The notes under the pieces were generated by a model. It was not told the origin of the DNA. It ran no database searches and saw only the letters and a list, made by a program, of their open reading frames with translations. The position numbers and the translations under genes were made by a program. Of a DNA stretch of 64,000 bases, positions 3,328 to 38,666 are shown piece after piece. Numbering within the stretch: position 1 is the stretch's first letter; every line of letters starts with the position of its first letter. The stretch is from Verrucomicrobiota bacterium (lineage in GTDB: Bacteria; Verrucomicrobiota; Verrucomicrobiia; Chthoniobacterales; JAFAMB01): contig JAFAZK010000280.1 of the NCBI GenBank assembly GCA_019239825.1, forward strand, positions 28,214 to 92,213, in the 5' to 3' direction.

Positions 3328-3373
3328 ACCTCCACTTGGACTCCTTCGAGTAGTCATTTTGGCGCGAAGGTTG

Positions 3374-23772: not shown

Positions 23773-24228
23773 TTATCTTGCCGAACCCCGAAGCCGTTTC
23801 GCCAGATAGGATCGTTGATGGCCGCGGGGATAGTCTTCCAATGTGCCGAAGACCTTAAACCCGAGTTTTTCGTAGAATCCGGGTGCCTGATAGTCAAAGG
23901 TGTCCAGATAGATCGCATCGCACTCTTGCTCAACGGCCAAGGCTTCTGCGCGCGCCATTAATTCACGGCCGATCCCTTCTTTTCGGAACTGTCGGTCGAC
24001 GTAAAGGCTTGAGACAAAGAAATGATTCCAGTGAGTAAAGCCTAACAGTCCCGCGATGAACTCGCCAGAGTCAGAACGCACGACAATAGCGAATTCCTTC
24101 TTGTTTCGCGGCCCTACCTGCGCCTCGTTGTAGGCGATCAAGGGGTCGATGATGCTGTAACATTCTTCAGGCGTTGGCTCGGACCGCAAGGTATAGGTAA
24201 GTTCCATTGTTGGTCGCTGGGTCCACAA
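23773..24228 (-). CDS. GNAT family N-acetyltransferase
   Basis: FFVSSLYVDRQFRKEGIGRELMARAEALAVEQECDAIYLDTFDYQAPGFYEKLGFKVFGTLEDYPRGH. Confidence 0.9.
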   Translation of the reverse strand: MWTQRPTMELTYTLRSEPTPEECYSIIDPLIAYNEAQVGPRNKKEFAIVVRSDSGEFIAGLLGFTHWNHFFVSSLYVDRQFRKEGIGRELMARAEALAVEQECDAIYLDTFDYQAPGFYEKLGFKVFGTLEDYPRGHQRSYLAKRLRGSAR

Positions 24229-24459: not shown

Positions 24460-27400
24460 CTACACCTCAAACGCCAGGATACGCGGAAGCTCGCCGGGAT
24501 ACGCAAAACATAGCAGCGAATATCCGATCCCGGAGATTCCGCGAAACAGGCTCGGTGAGAAGCAGAAGTTTTCGCCCACACTCTGTTGAAGACGAAAGAA
24601 CGCTCCTCGCAGACCGCGTTCGAGAGTTTGCTCGATAAGATTCGCGGCACTAGCCTGGAACTCAGGCCGGTTCTCCCGGCTGGCGATATAACTCAGGACC
24701 TCGGCAATGCCGAAGTTTCCGCAGCACCAGTGGTCCATGCTGCCTCGCTGGCGGATCTTTTCAACGACGATATCCAGCTCGTCGCGGGAAAGCTTTTGCG
24801 GTGTCTCCACGCCGACCGTGGCTAAAAGAATGCCGGCGGCGCCGTTGCACCAGTTATTGAGAGAACCTTGCGGTCCTCTTACTGCGATTGGCCAAGAACT
24901 GTTTTTCGGGTCAAAAAAACCTCTCATCAGTTTCAAGGCTCGCTCAACGAGTTCGTTGAACTGTGGATCACAGAAAGTGCGGCTGTATTCGGTCAAGGCA
25001 AAACTGATGCCCGCTAAGCCGTGAGCAAAACCGACATAGGAATCGCCGTTAGACCTGGTCCAGCCGAGCTCGGGATGGTAACGAGCCGCCAGCATCCGAG
25101 CTGCAGCGAGCGCGTTGCCGGCCGCACCGGCGTCTTTTGTGACCTGATAAAGTCGTGTAAGCGCGACTAACAATCCGGCCACACCCGAGATTATGTCAGG
25201 CTCATCCGTTTCAGGCCTTAATTTGACTCTTTTATTCAGCGCTAGAGCCAGTGCAGTCCAATCACTGTCCTTGGTTAGCCTTCCCAGAACCAAAGCGCCG
25301 TAAATCAGAGCCCCGACTCCATTGCAGATACCGGGAGGATAGTCAGCAGGCGGCTCGAAGACAGCCAGCCTTTCCATGAATCTCGATCCCGGGCGTTTCG
25401 GGAAAGCGGATCCTGTTAACTGGTCAACCGCCGCTAGAAAAATGAGCGGCCCCATATCTCCCAGATAGATCCCTTCGCGGTGAGCAGCGCTGAGATCGCG
25501 CGGAAGAAAACTCGGCGGATCCCATAGATACGGGCCATCTGATTTACTGATTCGCTGAGTTAATTCGTTAGCAAACTGCTGGACGACTGTTTCGGCCTGC
25601 GCGCCGGTTAACGGCTTTTCGATGGTCGCTGGAAAACGTCTGAGGGATTCCTGGATCACCTCCGTCTGAAAGCGGAAATCGTCTGCTCCCATGGCAGCGA
25701 TTCGTTCGAAAACGATATCGATCGGTTTCTTTCGAGCCGCGCTGGGCAGATGAAAGTTTCGACCAAGTAATTCCGTGCTGTTCAGCCGAATATGGAACCT
25801 CGGTATATCCAAGCCGAGCAATGACTGAACCTCGAAATCGATCAGCGTCTTGGTTTCTGGGGTTAGAGCGTTGTCTCGCAACGGGACACGATAAAGCTGC
25901 TCAAAAACGATGCTTTGGCGCACGCCAGAGGTCAGACATTTGGGAGCACGTGCTTGCTTCAGCAGGAAACCATAAAGGGTCGTCGGACGGTAAACGAACC
26001 TGGTCTTACTTTGGGCAAATTGTTCGATTAACCGGCTAAACTCGGTTTTCCGATCTGATACGAAATGATAGAGCCGGCCAAAGCCCGTTATGAGTTCGGC
26101 TTGGTAACGCCGCACATCCTGGATCTCATTGCCCAAACGGACAGTGTTGCCGGCATGCCTGGGTGATCGCGGCTTGGTGACTGGCCGCATCTGGTCGGAG
26201 TTGAGATTTTCCCAGTCAGTCACGTTTGTGTGTGTTAGGTCCACAAAACCGCTGCCCAGGCCGCAATAATCTGCCGGTACATGGGAGGCGCTTAATTGCC
26301 AGAAGGGCAACAAACCGGTCTCGATCACTGATGGGTTTCCTAGTTCCAAGACGTGCGCAGCGCCAGGTGTCGAATCGAACTTCGCGCTTCCACGTCCAGG
26401 GTGAAAAAATGATTCCGTGTCGATAGGAACCGGGCGATCGCCGGCAGCGATCACATTTTCGAATCCCAGATCACATCCATTCAGCAGATAAGCCAGACAG
26501 AGGAGTTCGCCACCGCCCCGGTAATAATGCCGGACATCTTGGGCGTTTTGACAGGGAGATTGTTCGATAAATTCTTCCCAGCCATATTCCTCACGCTTGA
26601 TTACTCGCGCCAGGCGCCAAGCCGCGGTGAATCCGACCCCGGCAAGCCACCGATCAACTCGAACAAGCGCTTCAGCAATGGAAAGGTCTTTAGGCTTGTA
26701 TAGCACCTGCTTGCCGTCGTCGAAAATGAGCAAGATCACTTGCTTACCTCCATCGTGCCGATCCGATATGCCCGTTTTTGTCCGTACTAGTTTTGGCCAG
26801 CGATTCTCTGACTGACCCAACGCGATCACTTCAGAAAAGTCAGTTCGGAGACGCTCCAGGAATAGGTTAGTGGAGTTAGTCCAGGATGTGAGTAAATGGC
26901 TGATCTGGCGGGCTAAAACCGGGAATCGTTCAAATAAGATCCGGTACTCGCTTTGGCGGACGCTTTGGATAAAGGTCTCGAAACTGCCGCCATTCTGCTG
27001 ATGTTGAGAGAATTGCGCGAAGCTCGGGAAAGAAGCAAGTTCGGAGATTTCTTGGAGAAGCGAAAGCAGCAAAGAATCGATCGCCGATGCCGTCACGGCG
27101 TCGGGTGACAGCGATAAGTTCTGACGAGCGAAAGCGATCAGGGGTAGCCAGAGAACTGAAAATGGAAATGCTTGGCTCCCCTCCAAATCAACGGGGGGAT
27201 ACTGAAGAGCTTGGTTGAGAACTTCTTCCCATCGATCCCTTTGGGTCACCGGTTCTGGCGGCTCGGAGGTGACATAAACGGCCTGCTCTTCGGAAACACC
27301 AAGCGATCTCAGGCGAGCAGAAAATCGGTCATAAGTGCCCGTCGTGAATACCTGTTTCCAATCGCGGAAATCGTCTCCGGGTTCCGGAGTTGCCTGGGGT

Positions 27401-27474
27401 TCGGTAGGCGCTGCGGCTAACCGCTCGTGAAGATAGTGAGCTTGGGCAGAGAGGGCAGCTAATGATTTAGACAT
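24460..27474 (-). CDS. lanM: Type 2 (class II) lanthipeptide synthetase LanM
   Basis: 1004 aa. Dehydratase region QVLLIFDDGKQVLYKPKDLSIAEALVRVDRWL and HYYRGGGELLCLAYLLNGCDLGFENVIAAGDRPVPIDTESFF; C-terminal LanC-like domain with WCNGAAGIL and HWCCGNFGIAEVL zinc motifs. Confidence 0.95.
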   Translation of the reverse strand: MSKSLAALSAQAHYLHERLAAAPTEPQATPEPGDDFRDWKQVFTTGTYDRFSARLRSLGVSEEQAVYVTSEPPEPVTQRDRWEEVLNQALQYPPVDLEGSQAFPFSVLWLPLIAFARQNLSLSPDAVTASAIDSLLLSLLQEISELASFPSFAQFSQHQQNGGSFETFIQSVRQSEYRILFERFPVLARQISHLLTSWTNSTNLFLERLRTDFSEVIALGQSENRWPKLVRTKTGISDRHDGGKQVILLIFDDGKQVLYKPKDLSIAEALVRVDRWLAGVGFTAAWRLARVIKREEYGWEEFIEQSPCQNAQDVRHYYRGGGELLCLAYLLNGCDLGFENVIAAGDRPVPIDTESFFHPGRGSAKFDSTPGAAHVLELGNPSVIETGLLPFWQLSASHVPADYCGLGSGFVDLTHTNVTDWENLNSDQMRPVTKPRSPRHAGNTVRLGNEIQDVRRYQAELITGFGRLYHFVSDRKTEFSRLIEQFAQSKTRFVYRPTTLYGFLLKQARAPKCLTSGVRQSIVFEQLYRVPLRDNALTPETKTLIDFEVQSLLGLDIPRFHIRLNSTELLGRNFHLPSAARKKPIDIVFERIAAMGADDFRFQTEVIQESLRRFPATIEKPLTGAQAETVVQQFANELTQRISKSDGPYLWDPPSFLPRDLSAAHREGIYLGDMGPLIFLAAVDQLTGSAFPKRPGSRFMERLAVFEPPADYPPGICNGVGALIYGALVLGRLTKDSDWTALALALNKRVKLRPETDEPDIISGVAGLLVALTRLYQVTKDAGAAGNALAAARMLAARYHPELGWTRSNGDSYVGFAHGLAGISFALTEYSRTFCDPQFNELVERALKLMRGFFDPKNSSWPIAVRGPQGSLNNWCNGAAGILLATVGVETPQKLSRDELDIVVEKIRQRGSMDHWCCGNFGIAEVLSYIASRENRPEFQASAANLIEQTLERGLRGAFFRLQQSVGENFCFSPSLFRGISGIGYSLLCFAYPGELPRILAFEV

Positions 27475-27479
27475 AAATA

Positions 27480-27503
27480 GCCGCCATCGGAACCGATGGC
27501 GGC
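27480..27503 (-). promoter_or_regulatory. Perfect hairpin between precursor genes and lanM start (possible attenuator / RBS occluder)
   Basis: GCCGCCATCGG-AA-CCGATGGCGGC, 11-bp perfect arms, 2-nt loop, ending 6 nt before the lanM ATG. Confidence 0.75.
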
Positions 27504-27547
27504 TTCAAAAATGCTTCGTCCTAGCAAATAAGTGCTATCGGCGCGGC

Positions 27548-27682
27548 TTAGGCGATGTTGACCGTGCTCAACACGTTGGAGCAGCTGACGCTCTGAATAG
27601 AGGTGGTATCGTTGATGCCGCCGGCAACGTCTTCGAGTTGTTCGTCGCTAATGGATTCTGGTTTGTTGGTTTCTTCGCTCAT
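27548..27682 (-). CDS. Lanthipeptide precursor copy 1 (44 aa, double-glycine leader)
   Basis: Hand translation MSEETNKPESISDEQLEDVAGG|INDTTSIQSVSCSNVLSTVNIA*; not in ORF track (below size cutoff). Confidence 0.92.
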   Translation of the reverse strand: MSEETNKPESISDEQLEDVAGGINDTTSIQSVSCSNVLSTVNIA

Positions 27683-27748: not shown

Positions 27749-27883
27749 TTAGGCGATGTTGATCGTGCTCAACACGTTGGAGCAGCTAACGCTCTGAATA
27801 GAGGTGGTATCATTGATGCCGCCGGCAACGTCTTCGAGTTGTTCGTCGCTGACCTGTTCTGGTTTGTTGGTTTCTTCGCTCAT
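27749..27883 (-). CDS. Lanthipeptide precursor copy 2 (44 aa)
   Basis: Hand translation MSEETNKPEQVSDEQLEDVAGG|INDTTSIQSVSCSNVLSTINIA*. Confidence 0.92.
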   Translation of the reverse strand: MSEETNKPEQVSDEQLEDVAGGINDTTSIQSVSCSNVLSTINIA

Positions 27884-27952: not shown

Positions 27953-28087
27953 TTAGGCGATGTTGACCGTGCTCAACACGTTGGAACAGCTAACGCTCTG
28001 AATAGAGGTGGTATCGTTGATGCCGCCGGCTACATCCTCGAGTTGCTCATCACTGATCGATTCTGGTTTGTTGGTATCTTCGCTCAT
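27953..28087 (-). CDS. Lanthipeptide precursor copy 3 (44 aa)
   Basis: Hand translation MSEDTNKPESISDEQLEDVAGG|INDTTSIQSVSCSNVLSTVNIA*. Confidence 0.92.
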   Translation of the reverse strand: MSEDTNKPESISDEQLEDVAGGINDTTSIQSVSCSNVLSTVNIA

Positions 28088-28149: not shown

Positions 28150-28464
28150 TTAGAGGCTGGAATCCGGGCCTAAGAACGTGTTGTTCTCAGCGCTTAAGAA
28201 TCCGCCCGCTATTGTTTCAAGCTCGGCGTCCGAAAGGTTTGCATTCTGGTCCGGGAAATCCTTTGGCAAGACGATGTACATCAGATCGTCTGTCTCTTGC
28301 AGGAGTACTACCTTCAGCCGATCCGGTAATGTGGTGCCTAGTGCTCGCTCGACGGCGAACTTTGGGTTCGCTAGCAAGGATTCCCGAAACGCCTCATCTT
28401 TCAAGGCCGCCCTTACGAGTACCTCTTTGACGTCTTTTCGTGAGATATTCGAGTTGGAATCCAT
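28150..28464 (-). CDS. NHLP (nitrile hydratase-like leader peptide) family RiPP precursor
   Basis: ALKDEAFRESLLANPKFAVERALGTTLPDRLKVVLLQETDDLMYIVLPKDFPDQNANLSDAELETIAGG|FLSAENNTFLGPDSSL, typical NHLP leader with a GG site. Confidence 0.85.
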   Translation of the reverse strand: MDSNSNISRKDVKEVLVRAALKDEAFRESLLANPKFAVERALGTTLPDRLKVVLLQETDDLMYIVLPKDFPDQNANLSDAELETIAGGFLSAENNTFLGPDSSL

Positions 28465-28578
28465 TTCTACTCTTTGTCTCCGGTGTGCCCGACATCCACT
28501 TCCGTGTCCGCCGAGCTATTTAGCAATGGGTGTGCCATAACTACGTCTGTTGATTCAAGTATCTGGGATATGGTCAGT

Positions 28579-28620: not shown

Positions 28621-28665
28621 AAAATGGAACTCCGATTCTCGAAAATGGAACGACAGCTCCATTTT
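28621..28665. promoter_or_regulatory. Candidate enhancer (UAS) for the adjacent sigma-54 activator: three AAAATGGARC half-sites
   Basis: AAAATGGAAC (28621), AAAATGGAAC (28642, exactly 21 bp later), inverted GCTCCATTTT (28656-28665). Confidence 0.6.
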
Positions 28666-28684: not shown

Positions 28685-29848
28685 TCACTCCTCTGGCTTC
28701 AGGCGATGGTGCCGCAGAAAATCCATGAACTTTTGATAGTGTTCCGGCCTGATATTGAGTAGGACACTCATCCGGCGATAACTGCCTCTGGCTGCTAACA
28801 GTCCCTGGGAGATTATCTCGCGGACCTGAGCTCGATTTAAGTCGCGGTCGAGAAAAGGCTCATGAACGACGTCCCAAAACGACCTCCCCTGCTCGACCAT
28901 ATCCTCGAATAGTTCATTCTTGCCGGTGCCCGGACCAGGTAAACTTGCTTGGCGAAGCTCGCTGACAAAATGATCTGGCTCTATGTACTTTGATTCCGCC
29001 ATGGAGAAGCCGATCGTGACGATGCTCCGGAGCTCCCGAACATTGCCCGGCCAGGGGTATCGCTCTAGAAACTTGATCGATGTAGGCGAGAATGCCTTCT
29101 TGAGGTTGTATTCCTGATTCAGCTTATCGACAAAATAACTAATTAATAGTTTCCAATCCTCATCGCGTTCCCGCAAAGCTGGGATATCCAAGGGAAAATA
29201 GCGGAGGCGGAAATAAAGATCTTGGCGAAAATGACCGGTGGCGATCATATCGCGCAGCGGTCTGTTAGTGGCTGCTATTACCCGAACATCCACCGAATAG
29301 GTTTTGGTCGAGCCCAACGGTTTAACTTCCTTTTCCGCGAGTGCTCGCAGCAACATGGTCTGAGCAGTGGGAGGAAGATCACCGACTTCATCCAGGAAAA
29401 CGGCGCCTCTGTCCGCCGCATCAAATAGACCTTTATGATCAGCGATGGCGCCGGTAAAGCTGCCTTTAACGTGCCCGAATAGTTCGCTAACGGTTACGTT
29501 GCCTTCGCTGTATTGTGGGCAATTGACCACCACAAAAGGCTCGCTAATGCGCGAGCTCATCAGATGGCAGGCTTTAGCAAATAACTCTTTGCCTACACCA
29601 CTCTCGCCTGTGATCAGGATGGTTTGATTGAATTTGGCGAACTTTTGAACTTTGTCTAAAGTGTCTCGCATTTTCGAACTGACACCGACTAGATCAACCG
29701 CTTGCTTTATTCCCCATTTCTCTAGGGACTTGACGCGGACCTGGAAGGCCACATCCGTCATGGTTTTGTCAGTTTCGCGGCTAACTTTCGTAGACGGAAA
29801 CGGAACCACGTTAGCGGTACTATCGCTCTCCATAAATGCAAGACACAC
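28685..29848 (-). CDS. Sigma-54 interaction domain transcriptional activator lacking a receiver domain
   Basis: GESGVGKELFAKACH (Walker A), GSFTGA loop, GAVFLDEVGDLPPTAQTMLLRAL (Walker B), RYPWPGNVREL; short N-terminus with no receiver. Confidence 0.92.
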   Translation of the reverse strand: MCLAFMESDSTANVVPFPSTKVSRETDKTMTDVAFQVRVKSLEKWGIKQAVDLVGVSSKMRDTLDKVQKFAKFNQTILITGESGVGKELFAKACHLMSSRISEPFVVVNCPQYSEGNVTVSELFGHVKGSFTGAIADHKGLFDAADRGAVFLDEVGDLPPTAQTMLLRALAEKEVKPLGSTKTYSVDVRVIAATNRPLRDMIATGHFRQDLYFRLRYFPLDIPALRERDEDWKLLISYFVDKLNQEYNLKKAFSPTSIKFLERYPWPGNVRELRSIVTIGFSMAESKYIEPDHFVSELRQASLPGPGTGKNELFEDMVEQGRSFWDVVHEPFLDRDLNRAQVREIISQGLLAARGSYRRMSVLLNIRPEHYQKFMDFLRHHRLKPEE

Positions 29849-30015: not shown

Positions 30016-32967
30016 TCAGGCTAGTTGTCGTCTGGCGAGGTCGGCGAATGGTCCCGCCTGATTCATCAACTCAGTGTAAGTCCCGGTCTGTGCGAGTTCA
30101 CCATTTTGCAGCACGAATATTCGATCCGCATTGATGATCGTGCTCAACCGGTGCGCGATGACGATTCGGGTCGCCTGCATCGCGTCCAAACTTTCCGTGA
30201 CTTTTCTTTGGGTTTCATTGTCCATGGCGCTGGTCGCTTCGTCAAAAAAGACAATGCGGGGCCGGTTTACCAGCGCTCGGGCAACCATTAGCCTCTGGCG
30301 CTGCCCCCCGGAAAAGGTGCCGCCTCCCTCCGAGACCACGGTGTGCATGCCCATGGGCATATTCTTGATGTCCCGGTCTAGACCAGCCATTCTCGCTGCT
30401 TCCCAAGCGTCGTTCACGCTTAGGTTGGTATGTGAACCGATAATGTTCCGATAAATGTCGGTGGGCATCAGCCGGCTGGATTGCAGGACAACGCCGATCT
30501 GCTGGCGAACTTCGCGGATATCCAAAGAAGACATTTCCTGGCCGTCGTAAAAAATTGCGCCTGATTCGGGTTTTTCGAAGCCAAGGAATAACCGCAAGAG
30601 CGTCGACTTGCCCGAACCTGATCCTCCAACTAGAGCCACGAACTCGCCAGGCCTGATGCGCAGCGAGATATCTTTCAAAATCAATGGTGCATCCTGGTTG
30701 TATCGGAACGAAAGGTGGTAAACCTCCAACTCACCGCTCAACTCGCCGGGGTGGGCTTTTGCCTCATCGATTTCGGGTTGGGCTTCGATAACGGGCCGAA
30801 GCCGCTGGAACAAAGGTAAGATCATTAAAAGATCCAACACGACCGTACTCAGTGACAACATGCTTGAGAGGACGTTGGTAAATACTCCGTTAAACGCCAC
30901 GAATTGGCCGGTGGTCATGTTGAATTTCTCTTGTCCCTGCGCAGCCTGATCCTTGAACCAGCCATATAAAAGGAATAGCAGAGCCGTCGCGATCACGGGA
31001 TAAACCCGGCTGAAAACTTGAACGATATTCCCGAGAAATTCGACTCGGAAGGCCAGCCTTTTCTGAGTCGAGAACTTCCTGGTCCATTCCCGGAACGCAG
31101 AATCTTCGGCGCCGGACACTCGGATTTTCGCAACCCCGTTTATCAGCTGCAGAACCAAGCCTGTAATTAATCCTCGGATGCGGAACATCTGCCGCTGGTT
31201 CGTCAGCTGCATCAAGTTGATGCAGAGCGGTAAGATCACGGAGAAACCGATAAGACCGAACGCCGCCCAGGCCATCTTGGCGTTGAACGTAAAAAGGAAG
31301 ATGCCGGTTATCAATGTGCTGATAGCACCGACGATGGCTTGAGTACCGGATTGAGAAATAGCCTGCCGAATCTGTTCGACTCCCAATGCCCGGTCTGTGA
31401 GGTCACCTGAGGTATAGTCGCGAAAGAATTGAGATGGCAGGTTGAGTAGACGGTCCCAGACGCCTGCTTGTACGGAATAATCCATTTTGCCGGTCAGGCG
31501 GAGGACGGCGATCGAACGAGTTAGTTCGAAAGCGAATGTGCCTAAGGCGGCCGCGAAAAGCCCAACGGCAAATTGAGCCAGTTGACTGCGATCGGCAGCG
31601 GGAATAACGCTGTCGATGATCTGACCGCTGAAGTACGGCGTTACCATTCCCAAAAACCCAACTAACACTCCCATCAGGCTGATGGTGCGCAGATCGGCGT
31701 GACAAGTCCGCATGCCGAATTTAATCAGGTCCCAAGCACCAAGCCGCCTTTCCGGTAGAGGCGTATATAAAGAAACGGCGAAGGGCGACAGAGTGGCAGC
31801 GCTTGAAGCAGTAACCACAACGCGTTCCACCGTGCGTGGGTCCGCTAACTCATACGTCGTGTGTCCGGTTTTCAAAATCGCGACTGGCTCGAGGGTGCCC
31901 TCGCGAAACGCTAGCAATGGGCCATGATCGACTTCCCACCACTCGCCTCGGAGCGCTATGGTGCGGTACCGGAACCGGGAAGCCTTTGCGATCGCTGCGA
32001 GTTTATCGCTGACTTGAAAAAGATCGGCTGGGACCTTGACCTGAATGCCGGATGCCTCTCCTACGAGCCGGCAAGCGATGACCAGGGGATTGCCGGAAGG
32101 GTCGGCGAGCAGGCCGGCCGTCTGGAGTTCGCGACGAGTCGCCAGCACGGAGGCGATTTCGCGCAGAGCGGTATCGCGCGACCGCAAACCGGACGCCTCT
32201 CGCGCACGCAAGCGATTAAAATCATCAACAATTCTGAGCTTCTTATTGATGAACTCGCATTGGCACAACACCTCGTGGAATAGCCCAAGGCCGATCCAGA
32301 AAGTAGGTTGGGTGATGCTGGCAGGAGAGGAAAAACATGACAGCAGGTTATCGTCATAAGATTCGATCCATGTGTCCGAAGACAGAGGAAGGATAGGAAC
32401 CCCTTCACCGGATAAAGAGACTCCTTCCATACCCATGTAAAGCGCTTCTCCGCGCAGGACCTGTATCCACACGATCCCGCGGCGCGCTCGAGCGATCTTG
32501 CCGCGAGGCAGTAACACTTGCTTACCGCCGACGAGAACCTCATCCGCTTTTGGTAGTGGCCTCGTATCGCGCGAGACACTGGCAGAAAGCTGTTCGAGCC
32601 AGTGATCGATGAGTTGGCTGAGAGTAGCAGCGTATTCGTGATCGCGTGCCAGCCGTCTCAGATCATCTTGACGCAGCCCGACCAGCTCCGAGCCTTCGCG
32701 ACCGGTGAGCAAAAAACAGTAACCGTGCGCTTGCTTGTTAAAGTCCATCCCGAAAATCAAGGAACCTGGCTCCAGCGAAAGGAAGTGTGACCGCGGGCCG
32801 GTAGCTTCGCCGGCTTCGAGCTGCACGGTGAAAATTTCAATCCGGCCCGTGGCGATAAACCAGACGTTCTCAGATCCTTCAACGACGAAAGATTGGTTCA
32901 ACCGGAGGACCTGTAGTTCACCGGATTGAATGAGAGCGTTACTAAGAGCTGCTGAAATGGCCGGCAT
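30016..32967 (-). CDS. NHLM bacteriocin system ABC transporter, ATP-binding/permease with cNMP-binding-like N-terminus
   Basis: N-terminal sensor-like region, 6-TM domain, GGSGSGKSTLLRLFLGF, FSGGQRQRLMVARALVNRPRIVFFDEATSAMD. Confidence 0.88.
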   Translation of the reverse strand: MPAISAALSNALIQSGELQVLRLNQSFVVEGSENVWFIATGRIEIFTVQLEAGEATGPRSHFLSLEPGSLIFGMDFNKQAHGYCFLLTGREGSELVGLRQDDLRRLARDHEYAATLSQLIDHWLEQLSASVSRDTRPLPKADEVLVGGKQVLLPRGKIARARRGIVWIQVLRGEALYMGMEGVSLSGEGVPILPLSSDTWIESYDDNLLSCFSSPASITQPTFWIGLGLFHEVLCQCEFINKKLRIVDDFNRLRAREASGLRSRDTALREIASVLATRRELQTAGLLADPSGNPLVIACRLVGEASGIQVKVPADLFQVSDKLAAIAKASRFRYRTIALRGEWWEVDHGPLLAFREGTLEPVAILKTGHTTYELADPRTVERVVVTASSAATLSPFAVSLYTPLPERRLGAWDLIKFGMRTCHADLRTISLMGVLVGFLGMVTPYFSGQIIDSVIPAADRSQLAQFAVGLFAAALGTFAFELTRSIAVLRLTGKMDYSVQAGVWDRLLNLPSQFFRDYTSGDLTDRALGVEQIRQAISQSGTQAIVGAISTLITGIFLFTFNAKMAWAAFGLIGFSVILPLCINLMQLTNQRQMFRIRGLITGLVLQLINGVAKIRVSGAEDSAFREWTRKFSTQKRLAFRVEFLGNIVQVFSRVYPVIATALLFLLYGWFKDQAAQGQEKFNMTTGQFVAFNGVFTNVLSSMLSLSTVVLDLLMILPLFQRLRPVIEAQPEIDEAKAHPGELSGELEVYHLSFRYNQDAPLILKDISLRIRPGEFVALVGGSGSGKSTLLRLFLGFEKPESGAIFYDGQEMSSLDIREVRQQIGVVLQSSRLMPTDIYRNIIGSHTNLSVNDAWEAARMAGLDRDIKNMPMGMHTVVSEGGGTFSGGQRQRLMVARALVNRPRIVFFDEATSAMDNETQRKVTESLDAMQATRIVIAHRLSTIINADRIFVLQNGELAQTGTYTELMNQAGPFADLARRQLA

Positions 32968-33173: not shown

Positions 33174-35357
33174 CTAGTGGCTTATCAATTTCGAGTACGG
33201 TCCTCCTGCGTTTTTCATCGATTCATGAGTTCCTCGTTCCGCCACTTTCCCGTATTCCAAGACGATGATTTCGTCGCAGTCCCGGATACTACTCAGCCGA
33301 TGCGCCACAATTAAACAAGAGCAACCGCGACGCCGCAGATTTTGATCGATCTGTTCCTCGGTGCTCGGATCCAAAGCGCTGGTGGCCTCGTCCAGGATCA
33401 ACAAACTCGGCGAGTTGACCAACGAACGCGCAATCTCCAGGCGTTGACGTTGTCCCCCCGAAAAGTTAACCCCACCTTCAGAGACTTGGCTGGACAGACC
33501 GCCTTGACGGGAAGCGACTACATCGGCGATGGCTGCATCCTTGCAGGCTTGTGTGATGTGCAAATCTGGTATCCCGGTGTCCCACATGGTAAGGTTGTCT
33601 CGAACCGTGCCTTCGAACATAAAAATATCCTGATCGACCATCGCGATCGAATTATGCAAAAGGCGTGGCGGGATTTTGTCTCGAGGGACACCGTCCAAGA
33701 GTATCTCTCCGCTCCAGGGCTTAAAAAGCCCGGCAACAATCTTGGAAACCGTAGACTTACCACTCCCACTTCCACCAACTAGCGCTACCCGATGCCCTGG
33801 CCGAATACTGAAGCTGAGGTCCGCAATCAGCGGCGGCGCCAGCGGATTGAAACCGAAGGTCAGATTGCGCACATCGAGCTGACCGCTGAGCTTAATCGTC
33901 GCGTCAAACCGCGGGTCGACTGACTGTTCTTGGAGATACGCCGAGTCTATTTCGTAGCGCAGAACATCATCCAAACGATTCAAATCGGAACCGGTCTCTT
34001 GTAACACGTTACCAAAGGTTACAAAAGAGGTAATCGGCTTGGTAAATCCGTCCATCAGCGACTGGAAAGCAACCAGCAAACCGATAGTTAGATGCCCGTC
34101 CATGACCCGCCAGCCGCCTAACCCGAGGATCGTGGCAGTGATCAGGGCCTTGGTAAACGGCGGAACGGCGGAGAGACTTTGACCATAAAAATCCATCTCT
34201 TGTTCGGCCTGAATGGTCTTGGCTTGATAGCCTCCCCAACGGGCAAAAAACTCGTTCTCGCCGCCTGTCGCTTTGAGAGTTTCGATCATCTGCACGCCGT
34301 TCATCGAAGTACCCATTAGTTTTCCGCGCTCTTGCAGAAGCCGGAAACTCGCGTCAACTCTCGGGCGTTGAACCAGTTTGACGCCGAGGAGGTTGAGCAT
34401 GGCCAAAGAGACGCACGCCAGGGTGAGCCAGACATCGTATTGAAACATTACCAGGGCGAAAAACAGGAGCGCCATCAGGTCAAGAGCCGTGGTTACCATT
34501 TTGTCGGACAGCACCTTGGCCACTTTGTCATTGATCAGCACCCGCGAACCGATCTCACCCGCATAACGCTGGGAGAAAAACTCCATCGGCAGCCGGATAA
34601 CATGGGTAAAAAATTTAGCGGATGTGGTTAATGCCAGCTTGGTCTCCAGTCGCAAAAGGAAGTGCCTCTGCAAGGCGACAAGGAAGAGCATGAAAAGAAT
34701 CGAGACCCCCATGGTCGAAAGCAGGGGACGCAAAATGTCAGTTTTATCGCCGATGAGAAATTCATCGATAAAAACGCGCGTGAACGAAGGGTTAACAATG
34801 TTGGGGATGATCAGCAGCAGCCCCGTCAACAACGCGTAACTCAACCCGATCTCGAAACCAGAAACCCGCCGGCGCAATGCTGCTGCGAGACTCGGCTTTT
34901 CTCCGCCCGGAGTAAAACTCGGACCTGGCTGAATAGTTAGGACAACGCCGGTGAAAGAAGCCTCGAGCTCTTCGAGCGCAACTCTGCGCGGTCCAGTCGC
35001 AGGATCATTAAGATAAACCTTACCCTCGGCGACCCCTTCATATACCAAAAAATGATTGAAATTCCAATAGAGGATCACCGGCGGCTTCATCTTCAGCAGA
35101 GCCTCTAGCTCGCAGCGGATACCCTGACTCACCATCCCGTACCGGCGGGCCGCTTTGAGTAGATTACTCGCCTTACTACCATCCCGGCCGACACCGCATT
35201 CCAGTCGGAGTTGTTCCAGCGGAATCCAGAGATTGTGATAGCGAAAAATGACGCCCAGGGCGGCTGCTCCGCATTCCACCGCCTCCATCTGCAACAAGGT
35301 TGGGGTGATCACTCGATCCGGAAGCCGCTCTTCCGCTGGCAGACTGGGTACGCTCAT
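33174..35357 (-). CDS. NHLM bacteriocin system ABC transporter with N-terminal C39 peptidase (leader-cleaving exporter)
   Basis: C39: TPTLLQMEAVECGAAALGVIFRYH ... VILYWNFNHFLVYEGVAEGKVYLNDPATGPRRV; TM domain; GGSGSGKSTVSKIV, FSGGQRQRLEIARSL. Confidence 0.92.
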   Translation of the reverse strand: MSVPSLPAEERLPDRVITPTLLQMEAVECGAAALGVIFRYHNLWIPLEQLRLECGVGRDGSKASNLLKAARRYGMVSQGIRCELEALLKMKPPVILYWNFNHFLVYEGVAEGKVYLNDPATGPRRVALEELEASFTGVVLTIQPGPSFTPGGEKPSLAAALRRRVSGFEIGLSYALLTGLLLIIPNIVNPSFTRVFIDEFLIGDKTDILRPLLSTMGVSILFMLFLVALQRHFLLRLETKLALTTSAKFFTHVIRLPMEFFSQRYAGEIGSRVLINDKVAKVLSDKMVTTALDLMALLFFALVMFQYDVWLTLACVSLAMLNLLGVKLVQRPRVDASFRLLQERGKLMGTSMNGVQMIETLKATGGENEFFARWGGYQAKTIQAEQEMDFYGQSLSAVPPFTKALITATILGLGGWRVMDGHLTIGLLVAFQSLMDGFTKPITSFVTFGNVLQETGSDLNRLDDVLRYEIDSAYLQEQSVDPRFDATIKLSGQLDVRNLTFGFNPLAPPLIADLSFSIRPGHRVALVGGSGSGKSTVSKIVAGLFKPWSGEILLDGVPRDKIPPRLLHNSIAMVDQDIFMFEGTVRDNLTMWDTGIPDLHITQACKDAAIADVVASRQGGLSSQVSEGGVNFSGGQRQRLEIARSLVNSPSLLILDEATSALDPSTEEQIDQNLRRRGCSCLIVAHRLSSIRDCDEIIVLEYGKVAERGTHESMKNAGGPYSKLISH

Positions 35358-36673
35358 TAATTCTTGATTCCCAGGATCTCTTTGATTTTTGGAATGACGA
35401 ACTCGACCGGGGGCTTACGCTCAACCACGATGGATGCTTGGGCTAACGTGCCGCTGAAAATACCCGTAGGCGGGCCCTGTGACGAAGACCATTTGTAGCC
35501 GCTCTTGGTTGTCGGATCAGGATACAGTTCGGCGGTTACTTCAATGGGCGCACCTTTTGACGTGAGGTCCTTAACTAGTTCGTCGTTTCGCAAAACGACT
35601 TTCATCCCGTCCGGCGTACTTGGAAAATAGGAGACACTCGAAACCTTTCCCAGGATGAAACCGTACTCCTCCGCTTTCACCGTCGAAGGCGAAATCTGGA
35701 TCTCCTGACCCGTTATTACCTTTTTGCCTTGTCCGGCCGGCACGTAGATCACCGCCTCCATCTTGGCGTCTTCCGCCTCCACCGTAATGATCCTGTCCTT
35801 GGAGCTGACGGGAGATCCTCTTTCCACTAACTTTTCAATGACCCGGCCGCTGTAGCGGCAGATGACCTTAGTGCCGGCGTCTTTCTCTTCCCGGAGTTGG
35901 TTCAAGTCCAGGGCGCTTTGATTAATTTCTTTGAGACGCGCGTTTCGCTGGGTTTGAGTTTCCCGGACCAGTTTAATCTCGCTGGTCCGGATCTCGCTCA
36001 TCTTTACTTGGGTATCGGCCGCTTGTAATTGCACCGCATAAAGAGCGTCTCTGGCTTTGTTGACCGAAGCCTGAGTAGTCAACCCTTTCTGGAGAAGGTT
36101 TGATTGGTTGTCGAATTCGGTTTGGTCAGCGTCAATTTGCACTTTATAACTCTTTTGGGCCGCCTCCATCGCCTTCTCTTCCTTCTCGTAGTCGGTAATC
36201 GCAGCGTTATCGCTTTTGGTTTCACGGGCGGTCATATCGGCATCTTGCGCCTGCAAAAGTTTGAGCTGCGCTTCCTGGGTCCTGATCTTTAACTCCAATT
36301 CTGACTGGCTCATCGTAGCCACGATCTGGCCGGTCGTAACTTCGTCACCAGGTTTGACCAGGACTTGGGTAACAAACCCGTCATTAGCGGCAGCCACGTC
36401 GTAGACAGCGCCTCCCCGAATCAGAATTCCACTTCCGCTAACCGTGTCCGGAATTCGCCCCAGAAAACCCCAGAGCAGGATCAGAAACAGGATTAGACCT
36501 AAGGCCGAGACCGCCAGCCAGCCGGCCGGCGAGGTAATCGACATTAAGTAATCAAGTTGCTCGGGGGAGGAGAGGCGCTCCAAAGCGGCTCTCCGAAAGA
36601 TGCTCCGTTCGGTGGCGCCGTTGCTACTGGTGCCATGGTGGCCGGCCTGAGATGTATTTGATGTTTGGCTCAT
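35357..36673 (-). CDS. NHLM bacteriocin system secretion protein (HlyD-family adaptor)
   Basis: Single TM, biotinyl-lipoyl halves (GFVTQVLVKPGDEVTTGQIVATM), coiled coil, GRVIEKLVERGSPVSSKDRI. Confidence 0.87.
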   Translation of the reverse strand: MSQTSNTSQAGHHGTSSNGATERSIFRRAALERLSSPEQLDYLMSITSPAGWLAVSALGLILFLILLWGFLGRIPDTVSGSGILIRGGAVYDVAAANDGFVTQVLVKPGDEVTTGQIVATMSQSELELKIRTQEAQLKLLQAQDADMTARETKSDNAAITDYEKEEKAMEAAQKSYKVQIDADQTEFDNQSNLLQKGLTTQASVNKARDALYAVQLQAADTQVKMSEIRTSEIKLVRETQTQRNARLKEINQSALDLNQLREEKDAGTKVICRYSGRVIEKLVERGSPVSSKDRIITVEAEDAKMEAVIYVPAGQGKKVITGQEIQISPSTVKAEEYGFILGKVSSVSYFPSTPDGMKVVLRNDELVKDLTSKGAPIEVTAELYPDPTTKSGYKWSSSQGPPTGIFSGTLAQASIVVERKPPVEFVIPKIKEILGIKN

Positions 36674-38666
36674 AGTTCCGGTCCTTCAAAACGGGGCCCA
36701 CCGGTTCTCTCACATCTGGAACTGTCTCGAAAGCTTGCTCGGTTATATTCGCTTGTTCGACTGCTTTCGGAAATCCGGGGACCCGCAGCGCGGTCTCTTG
36801 CGACAGCAGGGTCGCAGTTTCATATCTCAAGTCGACAATAGCGTTGGCCAGAGCTAAGCGAAAATCGACCAACTGAGTTTCCGCGGTCGTCAGTTGCTCT
36901 TCCGACTGGATAGTCTCGAACATGGTGGTTGCACCTCGGCGAAACTTTTCCCGCATGTCGTTAAAGGACTTTCTGAACGCAATCACCGCATCATGCTGAG
37001 TCTCGACGTCCGAACCCAGTTCTTGAATGGTGTCCGCACTCGCGGTCACGCTTGCGGCGATTGTAGTAGAAAGATCCTCCATCTGAATGATAGCTTGGTT
37101 CAGGTCGGATTGGGCCAGCACTACACCCCCCTTGGAACTGTTGTTGGCAAACGGCCAAGCTAACTGCGCTCCAAGCGATAAATCCAAACCGAGCTTGGTG
37201 CCTCGCTGGCTCTGGCCACTTGAGCTCGTTATCTTTTCGTTGTTGATGTCAGTCCCGATTCCGGTGGTTAGACTCGGGTATATAATGAGATCTTCCTTCG
37301 CTTTGGCTAAGCTCACCTGTTTTGACCTGATTGTCTGCAAGGCAGCAGCTCGATCGAGCCTCCGAGCCAGAGCCTCATCCACCAAAGCATCGGTGTTCAA
37401 GATTCTCGGCTGATGCTCGCTGACATCGGGGAAAGATTGAAATGCGAGCGGCAACCGGTGCAGTTGATCAGTTCTCAGACCGATGGTGATCGCCAGTTTC
37501 TTGGCAGCATCATAAACGGAAACTAATGCCTGTGTCCGTTGCGCGAATGACTGCGAACGACGGCCCTCGGCCAGCGTGACTTCACTGTAAGGAACTCCGC
37601 CTCCCTCCGCCATCTGCTTAGATAAATCCTCAAGAATAGAGTCAACCCGATAGGCGCGATCTTGCAGCGCAAATTTCTGCAAAGCGGATACCATTCCCCA
37701 GTACGCCTGGGCCGTGTCTGAGGCCGTCTTCTGAGCCTGGTTCCGTAACGTTAGTAACCTGCCTTCGTAATCGATGCGTGCCTCAATCTCTTCTGCGTCG
37801 TTGTACAGGACGCCAGCTTTCTTGAAGACCGGGATGTTAGCGGTCATCACAATTCGGTTCGTAGTCGGAGGGTATTTGTTGTTACCGGCCTGATCCACCC
37901 AGATCGGTTGATACAAAATAGACATGTCAATCCCGTTTCGAAATTTTTTGCTCAGTGAAACTTCCGTATCGATCGAGTCCGTCGCCTTTAGTTCCTGGCT
38001 CTGAACCGCTTGGGTAATTGCGCTGTTGATAGTCGAACTGCTGGCCGGGATGCCAACGGAACGAAAGATGGAGGGCAGCGCCGAGCTTAGCACTTGCTGA
38101 TTCGCGTCCAGAGAGGTATTGCTGGCTTCCGCTGGAATCGAGTGGGCGTATTTAGCAATTAATAGTGCCGTAGTGTCGAAGTCGCCTACCTTTTGTTGAA
38201 GTTTGCCTTTCGCCGATTGCGAGTCTTCGGAAGATAGTCGCAAGTCTTTGTTTTGAACGAGTGCGATTCTCACTGCGTCGAGCAACGAAAGAGAGAACAG
38301 ACCTGGCGGCGTGAGTTCAGTTAATGAGAGCGCGGATTCGAATTTCTGATCAAACTCCTCTGCCTGCTGTTGCGTGATTCCGCCGACTACCTCACCTGTT
38401 CCGCCTGGACCGGTCGGGCTCGGCGATGGTAGTTGCCCAGGTGGGATCAACGGCTTTATCTCATTGCGGTTACCTCCATGCTGCGGAAGTTCAATGGGTG
38501 CGCTTGAGGTTGGTGTGGGCGACGGTATCGCCGGTGGAACTGCCGGCGTAGTTTGAGCTTGCCCGGCAACTAAGAGGGTTGTTTCAAAGCCGATCAAACC
38601 GGCAATGCTTAACAAACTGAAGCGCAAAACATCCAACTTCGTCCTGCGATAATGAAGAGATTCCAT
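36624..38666 (-). CDS. TolC-family outer membrane protein
   Basis: Signal-like N-terminus; SLSLLDAVRIALVQNKDLRLS; duplicated coiled-coil repeats typical of outer membrane efflux proteins. Confidence 0.83.
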   Translation of the reverse strand: MESLHYRRTKLDVLRFSLLSIAGLIGFETTLLVAGQAQTTPAVPPAIPSPTPTSSAPIELPQHGGNRNEIKPLIPPGQLPSPSPTGPGGTGEVVGGITQQQAEEFDQKFESALSLTELTPPGLFSLSLLDAVRIALVQNKDLRLSSEDSQSAKGKLQQKVGDFDTTALLIAKYAHSIPAEASNTSLDANQQVLSSALPSIFRSVGIPASSSTINSAITQAVQSQELKATDSIDTEVSLSKKFRNGIDMSILYQPIWVDQAGNNKYPPTTNRIVMTANIPVFKKAGVLYNDAEEIEARIDYEGRLLTLRNQAQKTASDTAQAYWGMVSALQKFALQDRAYRVDSILEDLSKQMAEGGGVPYSEVTLAEGRRSQSFAQRTQALVSVYDAAKKLAITIGLRTDQLHRLPLAFQSFPDVSEHQPRILNTDALVDEALARRLDRAAALQTIRSKQVSLAKAKEDLIIYPSLTTGIGTDINNEKITSSSGQSQRGTKLGLDLSLGAQLAWPFANNSSKGGVVLAQSDLNQAIIQMEDLSTTIAASVTASADTIQELGSDVETQHDAVIAFRKSFNDMREKFRRGATTMFETIQSEEQLTTAETQLVDFRLALANAIVDLRYETATLLSQETALRVPGFPKAVEQANITEQAFETVPDVREPVGPVLKDRNYEPNIKYISGRPPWHQ

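Follow-up and report, generated by a model that had tools for sequence, protein, structure and literature searches.

The NHLP encoded ahead of three lanA genes in the 64-kb stretch of DNA analysed here (the window) appears to be a second type of precursor within a class II lanthipeptide operon of a Verrucomicrobiota bacterium, a reading to which we assign a probability slightly above one half (about 0.52). It would be made at precursor-like levels from a sigma54 promoter, cleaved at its GG by the C39 domain of the NHLM exporter and then exported as the linear 16-residue peptide FLSAENNTFLGPDSSL, modified at most by dehydration; that LanM, an enzyme of the CCG type, may dehydrate some of the four Ser/Thr residues present in the tail is the uncertain step. 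The precursor reading is supported by the family score of the NHLP, its GG site, the C39 exporter in the locus and the likeness between the LanA and NHLP leader ends, while the absence of the kinase DxH histidine from LanM has to be counted against the dehydration. Furthermore, the comparison of three genomes gives a strong hint that the NHLP is inherited independently of LanM and of the LanA cores. As the NHLP is unchanged where these differ, its role would be independent of which LanA core or LanM allele is present.

The NHLP gene and its locus

The 104-aa ORF matches the TIGR03793 leader_NHLP model over residues 9-88 with 70.9 bits (E 5.9e-20), above the curated cut-off of 50.9 bits, and its leader ends in LETIAGG (residues 82-88), directly followed by the tail. 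It has the GG end and the variable tail of this family, and the metal-binding Cys of nitrile hydratase is absent; in fact, there is no Cys at all among the 104 residues, so that a thioether ring within the NHLP is impossible. The original prediction had described an NHLP leader ending in LETIAGG with a Cys-free core, unable to form an intramolecular thioether and located beside a LanA triplet, and these points are confirmed, as three 44-aa LanA ORFs with one Cys each and a LanM are found next to it; its proposal that the NHLP donates to the LanA Cys in a two-component system is not supported (see below). The NHLP falls outside the LanA class, the tail Cys being absent in the window and in the congeners G002 and G003. 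Judging from the intact orthologues in these two congeners and a dN/dS of about 0.05-0.08, it is a real and conserved gene and not a chance frame. A genome-wide search (E 1e-3 or better) retrieved this ORF as the single NHLP. Matches in G003 (contigs C402 and C342), G010 and G530 (contig C72) were rejected as precursors because, with VCTLCSC or a continuation of it, they resemble genuine subunits of the nitrile hydratase type, and a plasmid search with the NHLP returned only remote NHLPs (33-42%).

Table. Features of the locus (window positions; aa, amino acids)
Feature	Position	Strand	Remarks
LanM	24460..27474	-	1004 aa; TIGR03897, 572.8 bits
Hairpin between last lanA and lanM, candidate attenuator	27479..27504	-	11 pairs; -24.7 kcal/mol; z -4.2
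LanA c	27548..27682	-	44 aa, one Cys
LanA b	27749..27883	-	44 aa, one Cys
LanA a	27953..28087	-	44 aa, one Cys; leader MSEDTNKPESISDEQLEDVAGG, core INDTTSIQSVSCSNVLSTVNIA
NHLP precursor ORF	28150..28464	-	104 aa; ATG start, GGAG upstream
NHLP leader, residues 1-88	28464-28201	-	GG at 87-88
NHLP tail (core) FLSAENNTFLGPDSSL	28200-28153	-	16 residues, Cys-free
Putative sigma54 promoter TGGCACACCCATTGCT	28522..28537	-	11/12 match; 57 bp before NHLP ATG
Further candidate half-site GTTCCATTTT	28630-28621	-	accompanies inverted repeat AAAATGGAGCTGTCGTTCCATTTT
Candidate upstream activator site AAAATGGAGCTGTCGTTCCATTTT	28642..28665	-	inverted repeat; conserved in three genomes
Sigma54 activator, AAA+ enhancer-binding protein	28685..29848	-	PF00158, 202.6 bits
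NHLM exporter ABC2	30016..32967	-	TIGR03797, 900.3 bits
NHLM exporter ABC1 with C39 peptidase domain	33174..35357	-	TIGR03796, 1040.2 bits; PF03412, 110 bits
NHLM HlyD-type adaptor	35357..36673	-	TIGR03794, 333.2 bits
TolC-like outer-membrane factor	36624..38666	-	PF02321, 83.5 bits

The genes are transcribed from the minus strand in the order TolC-like factor, HlyD-type adaptor, ABC1, ABC2, sigma54 activator, NHLP, three lanA and lanM, and the NHLM exporter trio (TIGR03794, TIGR03796 and TIGR03797) scores above cut-off throughout. No receiver or sensor domain was found by Pfam in the sigma54 activator. The sites equivalent to the sigma54 promoter in G002 and G003 match at 12/12 positions and lie 58 bp before the NHLP start. 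Two sigma54-like sites matching at 11/12 or better occur in the 64-kb window, the second (11/12, position 3360, plus strand) being outside the cluster; a site nearer to the activator (GG-N10-GC, 8/12) was dropped in favour of the 11/12 site kept in the three genomes. The NHLP is the first gene behind this conserved promoter, upstream of the lanAs and of the hairpin that precedes lanM, which has a counterpart in the same position in both G002 and G003, with a different sequence and the same pairing. This position before a likely attenuator suggests that the NHLP belongs to the precursor section of the transcript and not to the enzyme section. In G003 (L007, 7510-8525), a second repeat resembling the activator site, together with a sigma54 promoter, stands before a separate lanA triplet, and in one of its members, TMDNFVGVKNCTAALSTISL, the core has diverged. 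In G002 (L006, 11357-11860), an insertion of ~480 bp with GTTCACC-type repeats separates the activator gene from the activator site.

Each LanA is made up of a 22-aa leader (MSEETNKPESISDEQLEDVAGG) and a 22-aa core, which contains one Cys and, N-terminal to it, its own Ser/Thr. The LanA leaders match no NHLP model and resemble the CTB family bacteriocins only weakly (NF038167, 23.5 bits, below the cut-off of 32). Their end, ISDEQLEDVAGG, is like that of the NHLP leader, LSDAELETIAGG, which would suit a single GG peptidase, but as a GG leader end is general for the NHLP family (PMC2887384) this is no proof that LanM binds both leaders. Within the window genome, the three lanA cores are 96-97% alike and the three leaders only 85-92%, and it looks as if a new core had spread across older lanA leaders. 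The GNAT acetyltransferase gene that adjoins lanM (23773-24228), present in all three loci and encoding an ordinary acetyltransferase according to Pfam, is probably a flanking gene outside the system; Lys is absent from the window LanA cores and from the NHLP tail.

Inheritance of the NHLP, LanM and the LanA cores

The orthologous loci of the window genome (G000), G002 and G003 were compared, these being the three genomes with an available NHLP orthologue; all are drafts, and G000 has an estimated contamination of 8%, but its contig is syntenic with those of the congeners. The loci of G002 and G003 contain the same kinds of genes as the window, with the NHLP in the same place. A fourth congener, G001, could not serve as an example of a locus lacking the NHLP: the contig with its LanM is 3134 bp long and breaks off within lanM, and the assembly lacks the activator and lanA as well. 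The NHLP, intact and Cys-free in all three genomes, is 94% identical to that of the window in G002 and 86-87% in G003, and the corresponding values are 96 and 89% for the activator, 87 and 88% for ABC1, 85 and 86% for ABC2, and 55 and 54% for LanM. The dN/dS given above indicates purifying selection on the NHLP. Between the window and G002, dS is 0.36 for the flanking STAS gene, 0.45 for the activator and 0.39 for the NHLP, whereas it is about 2.8 or saturated for the exporter genes and saturated for LanM, and in the three pairwise comparisons NHLP and activator diverge in parallel (0.39/0.45, 1.48/1.90 and 1.26/1.68), values above about 1.5 being unreliable in every case. The contrast between low and saturated dS suggests that the activator, the promoter and the NHLP follow the chromosome and that the exporter and LanM are other alleles.

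A similar break is found within lanA. When lanA a is compared with G002 at the DNA level, the leader is identical at 63/66 positions (95%) and the core at 34/60 (57%), and the BLAST matches of the three window lanA copies to G002 end within one base of the GG codon. As a rapid change of the cores alone would not explain the divergence of LanM, we infer that lanA cores and LanM have been replaced by recombination. This homology break, exactly at the leader/core junction, provides a readable case of a change of product in which leader and promoter are kept.

The NHLP core behaves differently. Its 16 residues are identical in the window and G002, with 0 nonsynonymous and 4 synonymous changes (a chance of 0.0019 if neutral), while G002 and G003, which have a LanA core type in common, differ at 7/16 positions of the NHLP core. 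Because the NHLP core is the same where LanA cores and LanM differ and different where the LanA cores agree, an obligate pairing of LanA and NHLP seems unlikely. The same mixed inheritance would be explained just as well if LanM never acted on the NHLP. Between the window and G003, 7/16 tail residues are changed against 7/88 in the leader (Fisher P 0.001), and the leader, with 5-9 differences in 87 residues among the genomes, is the most constrained part of the protein. Such a conserved leader followed by a variable tail is the usual pattern of a precursor. A further proposal, which we consider unlikely, is that a fixed linear NHLP peptide stays by the sigma54 activator while LanA cores and LanM are swapped as a cassette and the LanA leaders remain constant; if this were true, the NHLP peptide would be a shared, core-independent component (a signal, a dehydrated co-factor peptide or an export partner) of an exchangeable lanthipeptide platform.

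LanM and the alternative readings

LanM aligns with LicM2 over most of its length and with CylM in two parts, and the zinc motif is CCG in all four congeners. In the kinase DxH motif of the window enzyme the His is replaced, giving DLG (residues 335-340, DLGFEN): taking the catalytic positions of CylM from PMC4550811, the place of His349 is occupied by Gly in the window LanM and by Trp in G001-G003, while the counterparts of Asp347, Asn352, Asp364, Lys274, Asp252, His254, Arg506 and Thr512 are retained. However, CylM H349A, although slow, achieved almost full modification after 10 h (PMC4550811), so that the window LanM need not be dead. The absence of this His is in itself a natural variation of the LanM dehydratase active site that extends across the genus. 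CCG LanMs are the promiscuous kind, and the usual partner of an NHLP precursor is a CHG LanM (PMC10027976). Searching the named genome collection with LanM yielded one relative, a truncated LanM in a Verrucomicrobiota metagenome-assembled genome.

Dehydration without ring formation, one of the outcomes proposed originally, would be the most obvious effect of LanM on the NHLP, and the same has been deduced in print for Cys-free NHLPs beside LanM, which Haft et al. (2010; PMC2887384) assumed to remain at the dehydrated stage. Homologous loci with an NHLP and without LanM, which would have spoken against the original prediction, were looked for, and LanM turned out to be present at every locus where this NHLP subfamily was found; radical SAM-type loci without a LanM match do hold NHLPs in the same phylum, but these belong to other subfamilies, about 36% or less similar.

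Several other roles for the NHLP have to be weighed against that of a second precursor. Its strongly conserved leader would be compatible with an escort or chaperone as well, as the original prediction had allowed for, in which the folded leader docks on the NHLM exporter or on LanM and aids the short-leader LanAs while the tail is incidental; the exporter is indeed of the NHLP type, whereas the LanA leaders are not. This accounts for the leader and leaves unexplained the constraint on the tail between G000 and G002, the retention of the GG site and the faster divergence of the tail in G003, where it changes in the manner of a precursor core. This speaks against a pure escort; moreover, the exporter has strongly diverged between G000 and G002 and the NHLP has not. 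We therefore consider an escort unlikely. Many classes of RiPP use NHLP leaders (PMC2887384), and the genome holds 22 radical SAM matches elsewhere, from which it could be argued that an enzyme encoded outside the locus modifies the NHLP in place of LanM. This is improbable, given that PF04055 (radical SAM) has no match on the locus-bearing contig C230, YcaO (PF02624) has none in the window genome (95.8% complete) and no other clear modifying gene is kept inside the locus across the three genomes. On the same grounds, a TOMM/azole peptide on the NHLP leader (no YcaO in the genome) and a proteusin with a radical SAM epimerase or methyltransferase (no PF04055 match on C230) were rejected. Besides LanM, no further DUF4135 enzyme was found in the window genome.

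The single NHLP copy and its short Cys-free tail could also be those of a relic, which would be an orphan precursor surviving from a former cluster without being used any longer, but the low dN/dS and the frame, promoter and GG site intact in three species make this quite improbable, and we rejected it on the dN/dS and the conserved promoter. We give still less credit to a signalling role, in which the exported 16-mer, instead of being an antimicrobial, would control the sigma54 activator encoded next to it, or the regulon of that activator: the parallel divergence of NHLP and activator in three comparisons would agree with it, but the activator shows no sensor domain and, as the two genes are adjacent, their shared inheritance is to be expected anyway. 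Least credible of all is the two-component system proposed originally, in which Dha/Dhb of the NHLP tail would form a cross-link with the only Cys of a LanA. The idea is invited by the common operon and by the presence of one Cys in every LanA and of none in the NHLP; a specific cross-link partner, however, should co-vary with the LanA core, and the NHLP does not, so that an intermolecular thioether was rejected as the main reading and the Cys-free NHLP is not classed with two-component lanthipeptides, whose second peptide likewise bears thioether rings and is co-inherited with the first. In addition, the Ser/Thr before the Cys in each LanA core favours an intramolecular LanA ring, and bacterial LanC-type cyclisation is described as intramolecular (PMC9934072).

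Relation to described systems and to other loci of the phylum

Haft et al. (2010; PMC2887384) already recognised both the NHLP family and the existence of Cys-free members beside LanM. According to this work, over 60% of the NHLPs adjoining LanM have a core Cys, which leaves a substantial Cys-free minority, so that the NHLP described here is not exceptional for the family. The NHLPs located beside LanM in Nostoc sp. PCC 7120 and N. punctiforme (PMC2887384) share with it the leader family, the GG end, the NHLM trio and the adjacent LanM, and differ in that the window genome has a single NHLP, which is in an operon with short-leader LanAs, comes first behind a sigma54 promoter and is accompanied by a LanM of the CCG type. 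Lanthipeptide clusters whose precursors have two types of leader have likewise been described in Synechocystis sp. PCC 7509 and Chamaesiphon minutus, where NHLP and Nif11 leaders occur with two LanMs, CHG for the NHLP and CCG for the Nif11 precursors (PMC10027976), whereas here there is one CCG LanM, the LanA leaders are short and the NHLP is Cys-free. The combination of one CCG LanM, short-leader LanAs and one Cys-free NHLP in first place under sigma54 control is thus a variant, of which we found no description in the limited literature considered. In the same limited literature we found no test of the assumption, made in 2010, that Cys-free NHLPs stop at the dehydrated stage, and this locus is a clean test case for it, with one LanM, two leader types and one Cys-free core; sister species which differ in LanM and LanA cores and have the same NHLP core add to its value.

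In the same phylum, locus L035 of G394 also combines an NHLP leader, a Cys-free core and a nearby LanM-type dehydratase domain, but its cores are longer and it contains B12-binding radical SAM enzymes, absent from the window locus. Proteusins with such a DUF4135-only dehydratase are of the polytheonamide type. Beside LanM-like enzymes, the NHLP of G475 and one of the two in G053 have a core Cys, and at the corresponding loci (L105, L075 and L008) another NHLP family occurs in several copies, with long cores of the form G-K-C ... SWGxx. Many genomes from a single family of the order, among them G515 and G035 (L078, L079), have ORFs of the LanM-type dehydratase that are about 500-600 aa long and seemingly without a LanC-like cyclase domain. 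Finally, the LanM dehydratase domain is matched eight times in G051, a genome of the same order (L067, L068, L076 and L077), which also has short NHLP-like peptides with a Cys near the C-terminus, such as WSTLCTDYTTTITNPNT.
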